Source: Gemmatimonadetes bacterium bin94 (GTDB taxonomy: Bacteria; Gemmatimonadota; Gemmatimonadetes; Longimicrobiales; Gaopeijiaceae). Taken from it: a DNA stretch of 64,000 nucleotides. Shown piece by piece: positions 3,698 to 23,609 of this stretch. A program made the translations under genes and the position numbers. Position 1 is the first letter of the stretch. Every line of letters starts with the position of its first letter. The stretch spans positions 62,001 to 126,000 of the forward strand of contig MPNE01000003.1 of NCBI GenBank assembly GCA_002238865.1, written 5' to 3'. Below the pieces are notes generated by a model, which worked only from the letters and a program-made list of their open reading frames with translations, ran no database searches and was not told the DNA's origin.

Positions 3698-4999
3698 TCA
3701 GCGCAACTCGATCGGCACGAAGTCCCGGCGAGGGTGGCCCCGGAAGACCTGGCGCGGCCGGGCGATCTTCTGTTCGCGGTCGACGACCATTTCTTCCCAC
3801 TGGGCCAGCCACCCCACCGTGCGCGGAATGGCGAAAAGCACGGGGAAGAGTTCAACCGGGAAGCCCATCGCCTGGTAGATCAGCCCCGAGTAGAAGTCCA
3901 CGTTGGGGTAGAGGTTGCGCTTGACGAAGTACTCCTCCTGGAGCGCGATCTTCTCCAGCTCCAGCGCGATGTCCAGCAGTGGACTGCGTCCGGTGACCTC
4001 GAAGACCTCGTCGGCCGCCCGCTTGATGATTGTTGCCCGGGGATCATATGCCTTGTAGACCCTGTGGCCGAACCCCATCAGGCGCCGTTCGCCGCGCCGC
4101 ACGCTGTCCATGAACGCGGGAATGTTGTCGGTCGTGCCGATTTCGGTGAGCATCCGCAGAACCGCCTCATTGGCCCCGCCGTGCAGCGGACCGTAAAGCG
4201 CACCCATCGCGCCGGCCATCGCCGAGTAGGGATCCACCCGCGAGCTGCCGATCACCCGCATCGCCGTCGTCGAGCAATTCTGCTCATGGTCGGCGTGGAG
4301 GACGAAAAGGACGTCCAGGGCGCGGACGAGAGCGGGGTGCGGTTCGTACTCCCGCCCCCCGATGCGGAAGAGCATATTCAGGAAGTTCGCGGTGTAGGAA
4401 AGTCCGTTTTCCGGATAGACGTAGGGCAGCCCCTTGTGATGCCTGAAGGCGAACGCCGCCAGCGTTGGCATCTTGGCCAGCAGTCGGACGATCTGAATCC
4501 GTCGGTTCTCCGGGTCGTCGACCTGCTTGGCCTCGGGGTAGAAGGTGGACAGCGCCGCTACGGTCGAGATCATCATCCCCATGGCGTGAGCGTCGTACCT
4601 GAAGCCCTGCAGGATGGTGAGTACGTTCTCGTGCACGTATGTGTGGAACGTCACGTCGTCAACGAAGTCGTCGAGTTCTTTCCCGTTGGGAAGTTCTCCG
4701 TTGAGGATCAGGTGAGCCACCTCGAGGTACGTGGCCTGCCCCGCGAGCTGTTCGATGGGGTATCCCCGGTACTCCAGGATGCCCTTGCCCCCCTTTACCT
4801 CGGTGATCCGGCTGGTTGTGAACGCCGTGTTGGTGAAGCCGGGGTCGTACGCCATCATCCCGAAGTCGGTGTCATGCACCTTGATCTTGCGCAGGTCCAT
4901 GGCGCGGATCACGTCGCCATCCAGGACATCGACTTCGTAGTCCCGCCCCGTGCGGTTGTCCCTGATGGTAAGGGTGTTTTTCCGTTCGCTGTCAGACAT
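3698..4999 (-). CDS. gltA: citrate synthase
   Basis: This is a cytosolic TCA-cycle enzyme condensing acetyl-CoA and oxaloacetate to citrate. It has 433 aa, the usual length of the hexameric Gram-negative type II enzyme, with the extra N-terminal beta domain (residues 1-50). Key residues are present: His238 (ADHEQN), catalytic His273 (PLHGGANE), His312 (GFGHRVYK) and Asp368 (NVDFYSG), matching E. coli His229, His264, His305 and Asp362. The ATG at 4999 follows GGAGAAG. It is transcribed alone and converges with the S9 peptidase gene. Confidence 0.98.
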   Translation of the reverse strand: MSDSERKNTLTIRDNRTGRDYEVDVLDGDVIRAMDLRKIKVHDTDFGMMAYDPGFTNTAFTTSRITEVKGGKGILEYRGYPIEQLAGQATYLEVAHLILNGELPNGKELDDFVDDVTFHTYVHENVLTILQGFRYDAHAMGMMISTVAALSTFYPEAKQVDDPENRRIQIVRLLAKMPTLAAFAFRHHKGLPYVYPENGLSYTANFLNMLFRIGGREYEPHPALVRALDVLFVLHADHEQNCSTTAMRVIGSSRVDPYSAMAGAMGALYGPLHGGANEAVLRMLTEIGTTDNIPAFMDSVRRGERRLMGFGHRVYKAYDPRATIIKRAADEVFEVTGRSPLLDIALELEKIALQEEYFVKRNLYPNVDFYSGLIYQAMGFPVELFPVLFAIPRTVGWLAQWEEMVVDREQKIARPRQVFRGHPRRDFVPIELR

Positions 5000-21068: not shown

Positions 21069-22528
21069 TGGACAAGTCCACGCTGATCACCACCATCATC
21101 TTCACCTACCTGGCGGTTACTCTCGGTGTCGGACTGGCAGCCGGCAGGCGCGCGTCCCGAAGCGTCCAGGGCTACGTCGCCGGCGACCGGGACTTCGGGT
21201 TGCTGGTCATGTACTTCATCACCGGCGCCACGGTCTTTTCCGCTTTCGCCTTCCTCGGCGGGCCCGGTTGGGCCTATTCGCGGGGAGCCGCCGCCTTTTA
21301 CATCCTGACGTACGGGGTGCTGGGCATGGCCCCTTGGTACGCAATGGGCCCGAAGGCGGCCGCACTCGGGCGCCGCTTCGGATTCGTGACCCAGGCGCAG
21401 CTTCTGGTCGGGCGTTTCCCGTCCCGGGGACTGTCCGCGCTCATGGCCGTACTCACACTGGCAGCCTTCGTCCCGTACGTGACCATCCAGATGCGAGGGG
21501 CCGGGATCGTGATCGAAGCCGTTACCGACGGCCGAATCCCACTGGCCGTGGGGGCTGCGGTGGCCTACGGGATCGTCCTCGTGTACGTGCTGGCGAGCGG
21601 CGTGTCCGCGGTGGGCTGGACGAACACCTTCCAGGGCGTCTTCATGGTCTCGATCGCGTGGGTGCTCGGCCTCTACCTGCCCATGCGCCTCTACGGGGGC
21701 GTGGGGCCGATGTTCGAGGAGATTCTGGCGAACCGCCCGGAACTCCTCTCGTTTCCCGGTCTGGACGGTAGCGGAGCCCCTTGGGGCTGGGGCCCGTATT
21801 CGACCGCGATTCTGGCAAGCGCCATCGGACTGACGATGTGGCCGCACCTCTTCATGAAGGCGTACACGGCCCGCAACGACACCACCATTCGGCGTACCGT
21901 GATCCTCTTCCCCACTTTCCAGCTTTTCCTGATCCCCATCTTTCTGATCGGTTTCGCCGGGGTGCTCTTCCCCGAGTCGCCGGACCAGCCGGACTTCATT
22001 CTTCCCTTTCTGATCCTCCGTTCGGAATTGCCCGCCCTGGTCGTAGGCCTTTTCTGCGCAGGGGCGCTTTCCGCGTCGATGTCCACCGGGGATGCGCTGC
22101 TCCATGGCGCCGCCTCGGTCGCAGTGCAGGACGGTGTGCAACCGTTCAAGCCACTGTCAGACCGCGGCCAGAGGGTTCTGATGCGCGTTCTGGTCGTAGT
22201 GGTGGGAGCGCTCGCCTACCTCTTCGCTCTCAACGAGGAGTTCTCGCTGGTCGATCTGCTGCTGGCGTCCTACGGGATCATCTGCCAGTTCATGCCCGCA
22301 CTGCTCTCCGCCATGTACTGGAGGCGCGCAACAACAGCGGGGGTCGTCTCCGGTTTGCTGGCGGGTTCCGCGGTCTCGGTCTTCTTTTTCCTGTCCCCGG
22401 AACTCAAGCCCTTCGGTCTGCACGAAGGGATTCTGGGGCTGATCGTGCATCTGCCGTTGCTGATCGGCGTGAGTCTCCGCGGCAAGCCCCAGGCCGAAGA
22501 ACACGTTGCCGGATACGTCGATGTCTGA
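21065..22528 (+). CDS. sodium:solute symporter (SSS family)
   Basis: This 487-aa cytoplasmic-membrane protein has about 13 transmembrane helices of the SSS/LeuT fold. Family marks include YVAGDRDFGLLVMYFITGATVFSAFAFLG near the N-terminus, the conserved segment FCAGALSASMSTGDALLHGAAS (about residue 340), and a final STG-type loop. It resembles the pantothenate/monocarboxylate permease branch. With the preceding beta-oxidation operon the substrate may be an organic acid, but this is inference. It ends overlapping the next start by 8 nt. Confidence 0.92.
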   Translation: MMDKSTLITTIIFTYLAVTLGVGLAAGRRASRSVQGYVAGDRDFGLLVMYFITGATVFSAFAFLGGPGWAYSRGAAAFYILTYGVLGMAPWYAMGPKAAALGRRFGFVTQAQLLVGRFPSRGLSALMAVLTLAAFVPYVTIQMRGAGIVIEAVTDGRIPLAVGAAVAYGIVLVYVLASGVSAVGWTNTFQGVFMVSIAWVLGLYLPMRLYGGVGPMFEEILANRPELLSFPGLDGSGAPWGWGPYSTAILASAIGLTMWPHLFMKAYTARNDTTIRRTVILFPTFQLFLIPIFLIGFAGVLFPESPDQPDFILPFLILRSELPALVVGLFCAGALSASMSTGDALLHGAASVAVQDGVQPFKPLSDRGQRVLMRVLVVVVGALAYLFALNEEFSLVDLLLASYGIICQFMPALLSAMYWRRATTAGVVSGLLAGSAVSVFFFLSPELKPFGLHEGILGLIVHLPLLIGVSLRGKPQAEEHVAGYVDV

Positions 22529-22850
22529 CGCGGTCACGGACCCGGAGGCTCGACGGCTGGAGCGGCTCCGCAACGAGATTCTGGATTGCGACCGGGAACT
22601 CGTCCGGATCCTCGGCCGACGTCGGGATCTGGTGCACGAGGTCGGGCGCCTGAAGGCGGCCCTGGGTGCTCCCGTGACCGATCCGAGGCGTGAGGCTGTG
22701 GTGGTCCGGAGGGCCGCCGTGCTGGCAAGGGAATCGCGTCTGGACGAGGAACTGGTGCGTGACCTGATCTGGAAGATCATGGCGTCGTCGCGGGACCAGC
22801 AGTACTCGCCACCGGCGGAGCCGGACGGGAACCCCGAGGAGGAGGAGTAG
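22521..22850 (+). CDS. aroQ: chorismate mutase (AroQ type II)
   Basis: This 109-aa all-helical protein rearranges chorismate to prephenate for Phe/Tyr synthesis. The AroQ pattern is visible: LRNEILDCDRELVRILGRR (helix 1 with Asp and Arg), RRDLVHEVGRLKAALG (Lys/Arg active-site region), DPRREAVVVRRAA and a C-terminal helix DEELVRDLIWKIMASSRDQQ. The tail is acidic (NPEEEE). The ATG at 22521 overlaps the symporter stop. A link to the transporter is not obvious and may be only co-transcription. Confidence 0.88.
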   Translation: MSDAVTDPEARRLERLRNEILDCDRELVRILGRRRDLVHEVGRLKAALGAPVTDPRREAVVVRRAAVLARESRLDEELVRDLIWKIMASSRDQQYSPPAEPDGNPEEEE

Positions 22851-22894
22851 AAGAGCTCGGGCCGAGCCCGGCGCCGCCGGACATGGGTAGCATA

Positions 22895-23262
22895 GAGAAA
22901 GCCCCCGGCGGGCAGCACACCACCCGCTCGGGGGCTTCGTCTCGCTGGCGAGTCGGAAAGCTCCGTTTCGGTGCCGCCATGTGCTGCGGCCGGTTTTCCG
23001 TCTCTTCGCCCTTTCAGCGTCTCCGCCTTCCAGGCCGTCCCCCGTTCCCAGGGACTTCGGCTGCTTCCAGCGACCCCGCAGCCGTCACGGTCTTCTCCGA
23101 ACTCGAACACCGTGCTCGCCTCGAACTCCGTCTCCGGCGCCCTCGGCGCATCGAATCTCGACCGGTTTTCCTTCTGGGGTTTCCCCCTTCAAGAGCCTCT
23201 CCGAGACCCGCCCCGCTGCTTCGGTTCCGTTCCCTTTCGGTAGCGTCTCGTCCGCCACGGGG
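22895..23262 (-). ncRNA. candidate structured non-coding RNA, about 370 nt, unidentified
   Basis: The gap between aroQ and rpmA has no convincing reading frame but looks like a stable RNA on the minus strand. The sense strand is purine-rich with A-rich loops and many short stems: GGGG-GAAA-CCCC with a GNRA loop near 23177, GCGCC-GAG-GGCGC near 23135, CACGGT/ACCGTG, GGCTGC/GCAGCC near 23080-23058, GTCCC/GGGAC, GCCGC/GCGGC and CTCG-CCAG-CGAG. It is preceded by an A8 tract and a promoter-like sequence and ends in a GC-rich hairpin with TTTCTCT. I saw no RNase P (GAGGAAAGTC, ACAGAA), tmRNA or SRP signature. Boundaries are estimates. Confidence 0.55.
22897..22938 (-). terminator. terminator of the candidate RNA
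   Basis: AAGCCCCCGAGCGGG pairs with CCCGCCGGGGGCTT (one mismatch) around a 10-nt loop. On the minus strand the stem is followed by TCTCTAT. On the plus strand no T-run follows, so the minus direction is favoured. Confidence 0.65.
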
Positions 23263-23267
23263 TAACC

Positions 23268-23306
23268 ACCTTAACACACCGTGCGGGAAACCGCAAGCTT
23301 TTTTTT
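23268..23306 (-). promoter_or_regulatory. candidate promoter of the structured RNA with upstream A-tract
   Basis: On the minus strand an A8 tract (23306-23299, UP-element-like) is followed by TTGCGG (23296-23291), a 17-nt spacer and TAAGGT (23273-23268). The -10 match is moderate. Transcription would begin near 23262. Confidence 0.45.
23282..23306 (+). terminator. rho-independent terminator on the plus strand
   Basis: TGCGG-GAAA-CCGCA forms a perfect 5-bp stem with a GNRA loop and is followed by AGC and eight T. It would end plus-strand transcription coming from the symporter-aroQ operon. The same bases include the A-tract and -35 region of the minus-strand candidate promoter. Confidence 0.6.
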
Positions 23307-23342
23307 CGGGACACCGGGCCGAAGGGTGTTCGACCCCCCTGA

Positions 23343-23609
23343 TCAGGCCAGACTGATCTGGTCCGGGTAGACGGAAACGACCCTGCGCCGACGGAGGTTT
23401 TCGAACTTCACAACACCGTCGCTCGTGGCGAACAGGGTGTCGTCCCGGCCCCGGCCAACGTTGTTTCCGGGGTGGAACCTGGTGCCTCGCTGACGGACAA
23501 GGATGTTCCCGGCGAGAACTCTTTCGCCAGCGTAACGCTTTACGCCCAAACGTTTTGCGTTGCTGTCTCGTCCGTTTCTGGACGATCCTACACCTTTCTT
23601 GTGAGCCAT
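23343..23609 (-). CDS. rpmA: 50S ribosomal protein bL27
   Basis: This 88-aa large-subunit ribosomal protein begins [20 protein letters not shown] without the cleavable N-terminal extension found in Firmicutes, and contains the conserved [28 protein letters not shown]. Its N-terminus reaches the peptidyl-transferase centre. It lies 9 nt after rplU in the universal rplU-rpmA operon. Confidence 0.99.

Follow-up and report, generated by a model that had tools for sequence, protein, structure and literature searches.

A candidate family of large, pseudoknotted non-coding RNAs in Gemmatimonadota

Introduction

What does the gap between aroQ and rpmA in Gemmatimonadetes bacterium bin94 encode? The gap spans positions 22851-23342 of the window (the whole analyzed stretch of 64,000 nucleotides) and measures 492 nt in the window sequence, close to the roughly 490 nt given in an earlier note on this DNA. 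The note proposed a stable structured RNA gene on the minus strand of the gap, a claim that the fold, the conservation and the covariation described here bear out. Gemmatimonadota are a widespread phylum with soil, groundwater and sponge-associated bacteria. To our knowledge, the RNA biology of the phylum is almost unstudied.

The locus and its predicted transcript

The RNA gene lies downstream of rpmA on the same strand and is convergent with aroQ, and Pfam identifies L21 and RNase E/G as further neighbors. The predicted transcript is about 368 nt long, with a 5' end placed from the promoter to within a few nucleotides. The elements listed in the earlier note (A8 tract, promoter, GNRA hairpin, and GC-rich hairpin with TTTCTCT) all lie where it had put them. 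The promoter and the A-tract, which the note had included, fall outside the probable transcript, which runs from about 23261 to 22894. The features of the locus are as follows.

22506-22850, plus strand: aroQ, chorismate mutase, convergent with the RNA (Pfam CM_2, E 6e-21)
23343-23609, minus strand: rpmA, ribosomal protein L27, upstream of the RNA on the same strand (Pfam Ribosomal_L27, E 7.5e-39)
23297-23304, minus strand: A8 tract adjoining the -35 box upstream, kept in some relatives only
23291-23296, minus strand: -35 box TTGCGG (TTGCG in 20/20 aligned genus members)
23268-23273, minus strand: -10 box TAAGGT after a 17-nt spacer (TANNNT in 20/20 aligned genus members)
22894-23261, minus strand: predicted non-coding RNA gene (promoter and terminator conserved, covariation, frame not conserved)
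23176-23187, minus strand: GNRA hairpin GGGG-GAAA-CCCC, part of the 5' extension specific to the genus (loop changes stay within GNRA)
23086-23114, minus strand: helix PA with UUCGG / UUCGA loop (covariation)
23058-23084, minus strand: helix PB, a hairpin whose loop contains the PK1 5' strand (94.7% of cells paired; compensatory changes at 6 of 7 pairs)
23067-23073, minus strand: PK1 5' strand UCGCUGG (covariation)
23037-23055, minus strand: helix PC, a hairpin at the weaker end of the structure (75.9% paired)
23008-23036, minus strand: helix PD, a hairpin (covariation)
22950-23004, minus strand: helix PE, a long stem whose end hairpin carries PK2 GCACA in its loop (covariation)
22980-22984, minus strand: 5' strand GCACA of the kissing loop PK2 (covariation)
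22942-22948, minus strand: PK1 3' strand CCAGCGA (95.2% of cells paired; compensatory changes at 4 pairs)
22894-22938, minus strand: helix PF, a terminal GC-rich hairpin followed by TTTCTCT, a putative intrinsic terminator (conserved sequence, covariation)
22915-22919, minus strand: PK2 3' strand UGUGC in the loop of the terminator hairpin (covariation)

The minus strand of the gap folds better than its dinucleotide shuffles (z = -3.93; none of 100 shuffles equals it). On the plus strand, the fold is no better than that of the shuffles (z = -1.07).

Conservation within the genus

When 59 relatives were searched at the DNA level, 21 of the 23 genomes sampled from the genus had the RNA sequence downstream of rpmA, with an RNA body of 367-377 nt and a U content of only 7-11%. 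In one of these relatives (G005) the RNA runs off the end of the contig. Identity within the genus is 38% upstream of the promoter, rises to 67% in the promoter, reaches 72% in the 5' half and 87% in the 3' half of the RNA, and returns to 38% downstream. The GNRA loop appears as GAAA, GCGA, GCAA or GAGA, all of which still fit the GNRA consensus. Nearly all indels in the genus alignment are not multiples of three and there is thus no conserved reading frame. This agrees with the earlier remark that no convincing frame covers the region, as the indels break every frame. A protein gene on either strand was ruled out, given the broken frames and the lack of Pfam matches for the long frames of the gap.

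The layout of the promoter does not vary: each of the 20 aligned genomes has TTGCG(G/C) and TANNNT separated by exactly 17 nt. The terminal hairpin and its U-rich tail are likewise strongly conserved in the genus alignment. Because promoter and terminator are both conserved, a minus-strand transcript is likely. The sequence evidence strongly suggests that the RNA gene has a sigma-70-type promoter of its own to start transcription and a terminator of its own to stop it. The A8 tract might possibly serve as a UP-like element. Two genus members (G009 and G011) show a clean loss after rpmA and have no match to the family model R2 described below. The clean loss in two relatives indicates that the RNA gene is dispensable rather than essential.

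A pseudoknotted fold supported by covariation

Two alignments carry the structural evidence, one of 27 sequences (A4) and one of 51 sequences aligned to R2 (A5). In A4, 81.7% of cells pair compared to 72.1% in shuffled alignments and 40-45% with the partners slid, and both sides have changed at 57 of 73 pairs. A5 was fitted to a model of the nested structure, which biases it in that direction, although the model contains neither PK1 nor PK2; here, 87.3% of cells are paired compared to 68.0% after shuffling, with changes on both sides at 69 of 73 pairs. None of 500 shuffles reached the A5 values on any measure. In an unsupervised covariation ranking of all 23,436 A5 column pairs, the 23 highest-ranked pairs are all part of the proposed structure, and so are 39 of the first 60. 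Relatives show very strong conservation and covariation, a check that the earlier note had named.

The comparison shows that the RNA forms a chain of helices, PA to PF, held in place by the pseudoknot PK1, to which most members add a second lock, PK2. PK1 connects a loop to a junction, with the PB loop UCGCUGG pairing with a CCAGCGA junction strand just before the terminator. In A5, 95.2% of PK1 cells are paired and four pairs show double changes, with alternative pairings including UCGUCGG:CCGACGC, UCGCCGG:CCGGCGA and UCGUUGG:CCAACGA. PK2 is a kissing loop of the PE loop with the loop of the terminator hairpin (GCACA:UGUGC), which is replaced in other members by GCACG:CGUGC, GCAUC:GAUGC, ACACG:CGUGU or UUACG:CGUAA. 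PK2 is absent or unresolved in several members. As PK2 pairs the PE loop with the terminator-hairpin loop, the terminator itself belongs to the fold.

Several unpaired loop segments are conserved as well, namely GAGGU, GUUCGR and CCGAA. The T-loop-like GUUCGA in PA, lying beside the GG-containing PB loop, gives a lead towards a contact that may resemble the tRNA elbow. In most members, the unpaired GAGGU of the PB loop precedes PK1 and has its complement in ACCUC, the core of the usual anti-Shine-Dalgarno sequence. The PB loop of the window (23078-23073) has GGGGU in place of GAGGU.

Distribution across the phylum

Covariance models were used to follow the RNA beyond the genus in overlapping samples of the order, the class and the phylum. 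Of the 154 genomes sampled from the order, 39 match the model R1, which covers the 3' 196 nt of the RNA; they represent 18 genera and three families. The model R2 combines 27 diverse sequences with a structure drawn up by hand. It matches 127 of 394 genomes of the class in 59 genera, with up to four places per genome, and 112 of 395 genomes of the phylum sample. The E-values of the models are rough owing to a short calibration and, because the pre-filter also scores few candidates, the family counts are lower bounds and absences are uncertain. With the same pre-filter, R2 matches are found in only part of the phylum. The window copy scores 173 bits (E about 1e-48) with R2, which was trained partly on this copy, and it carries the PB hairpin with PK1, the PE hairpin and the terminal hairpin PF with covariation, as in the family.

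A pattern scan of named genomes retrieved 18 loci confirmed at E < 1e-23, all of them in Gemmatimonadota. Six further pattern matches outside the phylum, in Mycobacterium, Streptomyces, Nesterenkonia, Dyella, a Chloroflexi MAG and an archaeal MAG, were rejected as chance (E > 0.03), and those six genomes contain no family match. No family match was found in 198 control genomes of another phylum either. Viral contigs do not contain the core pattern and a phage RNA was ruled out on these grounds.

Most family members have sigma-70-like sites at a near-constant distance from the RNA. At a strict score, near-perfect sigma-54-like sites (of the TGGCACG-N4-TTGCA type) lie upstream of 6 of 49 members, compared to 0 of 373 background windows. 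The members with sigma-54-type sites are L067, L073, L074, L076, L080 and L083, with sigma-70-type sites in others. The two types of site agree on a predicted 5' end that lies about 65 nt upstream of helix PA. With the 5' end set by this promoter position, the RNA would be about 290 nt long in most relatives, and the genus of the window differs from the rest of the family by an 80-nt 5' extension. In three divergent members (L135, L136 and L090), the terminal hairpin lacks a clear U-tract and the 3' end may form differently.

Gene order and copy number

The neighbors of the RNA differ between lineages. In 12 fetched loci from two families, the RNA lies by carA with a convergent RNase H-like gene in between. 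lipB and odhB are usually upstream, with one or the other signature unseen in a few of these loci. We consider the order lipB-RNA-(convergent RNase H-like gene)-carA to be ancestral. In the genus of the window, the RNA is instead located between rpmA and aroQ. The short RNase H-like protein carries the signature ADESCLGNQ in L069, L068, L084, L087, L088, L137 and others, and a 60-aa fragment of it had no Pfam match.

Most genomes have one copy. R2 matches occur at three or four places in some genomes, and in one genome (G037) two copies on the same strand are about 1.5 kb apart (L085:3010-3233 and 4483-4713). Gemmatirosa kalamazoonensis has two copies about 24 kb apart (L122 and L123) on the 1.04 Mb plasmid NZ_CP007130.1, and its assembly contains a third match on a different contig. 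The Gemmatirosa copies are the only plasmid copies found, and no plasmid copies of the window sequence were found.

Comparison with known RNAs

A search of the region against the 4227 families of Rfam 15, a check suggested in the earlier note, found no match at gathering scores and, up to E 10, a single hit to an unrelated family at chance level. A known Rfam family was therefore ruled out. Short Rfam searches with two distant members likewise gave chance matches only. We found no description of such an RNA in the open-licence literature.

The earlier note had found no signatures of RNase P RNA, tmRNA or SRP RNA, and the region indeed matches none of these models, with the corresponding RNAs located elsewhere in the genome. 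RNase P RNA (RF00010) is at G000:C14:69162-69548, tmRNA (RF00023) is on contig C22 and an SRP RNA (RF00169) candidate is on contig C68, with 39.1 bits against a cut-off of 40. Class A RNase P RNA is similar in length, has GNRA loops and is pseudoknotted, yet the new RNA fails its model and the true copy lies elsewhere. 6S RNA (RF00013) had no match in the genome. 6S RNA is a stand-alone regulatory RNA with its own promoter, as proposed for the new RNA, but it is a single long hairpin of about 180-190 nt with an open bubble, whereas the new RNA is multi-helical, has two pseudoknots and is about twice as long.

CsrB and RsmZ are sponge RNAs with repeated ANGGA motifs in hairpin loops. The new RNA resembles them in length (about 370 nt) and in its many GGA trinucleotides (16-22 per member). 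The conserved features appear, however, to be pseudoknots rather than repeated GGA loops, and the high GGA count probably stems from the high G content, with GGAs that seem often to lie in stems or GNRA loops. OLE, ROOL, GOLLD and raiA are orphan large structured bacterial RNAs recognized by comparative genomics, with functions that are unknown or partly known. They share with the new RNA the long and intricately folded non-coding form with pseudoknots or loop-loop contacts. They differ in phylum, size and fold, the new RNA has no Rfam match, and its core pattern has no match in viral contigs.

Alternative explanations

A cis-acting leader or attenuator of a riboswitch-like kind would use the pseudoknotted fold to set terminator formation and control a downstream gene. 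The participation of the terminator hairpin in PK2 is reminiscent of attenuators. However, the RNA is not upstream of and in line with a controlled gene as a riboswitch or attenuator is: aroQ is convergent in the window and an opposite-strand gene is directly downstream at the ancestral locus, which argues that the RNA is not a leader. The variable neighbors and the RNA's own promoter also speak against this reading. Leader and riboswitch were thus ruled out by gene order, which largely refutes a cis-acting role and makes it very unlikely. A housekeeping RNA (RNase P, tmRNA, SRP or 6S RNA) present as a diverged copy would fit the size range, and 6S RNA was not found in the genome. Yet the RNase P RNA, the tmRNA and the SRP RNA candidate are encoded elsewhere, and two pseudoknots with a terminal hairpin are unlike the 6S hairpin with its central bubble. 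Two relatives do without the RNA and Rfam has no match, which renders a housekeeping origin most improbable.

The RNA could also belong to a mobile or selfish element that spreads as extra copies, given two or more places in some genomes, the closely spaced pair in G037 and the pair on the Gemmatirosa plasmid. We regard such an origin as highly doubtful, since the RNA is mostly single-copy, gene order is conserved across two families, the best flanking frames share no recombination gene and viral contigs have no match. A base-pairing small RNA deserves more weight while still being rather unlikely. GAGGU in the PB loop and GUUCGR in the PA loop would then base-pair with mRNAs or the 16S rRNA 3' end, in line with the conservation of unpaired loop sequences and with a stand-alone promoter and terminator. 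The most conserved loop sequence is taken up by PK1 though, and the fold is far larger and more rigid than in most such RNAs.

Proposed function

We suggest that the locus almost certainly represents a stand-alone structured RNA family across Gemmatimonadota that was previously uncatalogued. The fuller reading, in which a stand-alone gene of this family with the PA-PF fold and its own promoter and terminator yields a trans-acting RNA, likely in a ribonucleoprotein, is reasonably probable. The RNA would act in trans as a folded molecule, most likely within a regulatory ribonucleoprotein. The rigid scaffold might present the conserved unpaired loops GAGGU, GUUCGR and CCGAA as docking sites, either for a protein or for the machinery of translation or transcription. 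A mechanism based on a protein partner is plausible, if somewhat short of probable. The RNA may be made under conditions that differ between lineages. Its dispensability and the change of promoter type between lineages point to a regulatory role. Of the two functions guessed from size in the earlier note, a large regulatory RNA is the better half, while a ribozyme has no specific support here. Tentatively, the RNA could represent a class of large knotted RNAs that is new and has its own function throughout the phylum, for example as a ribonucleoprotein regulating transcription or translation, or as an RNA catalyst.

Conclusions

The novelty claimed here is at the level of the RNA family and not of its mechanism. 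Dozens of genera retain the RNA together with its two internal knots, and it therefore very probably has a role that nobody has described. A structural model and named genomes such as Gemmatirosa kalamazoonensis are ready for testing expression and role. With a length of about 290-375 nt and two pseudoknots that covary, an RNA predicted in dozens of genera and not in Rfam 15 would add a new orphan RNA class to the biology of Gemmatimonadota.
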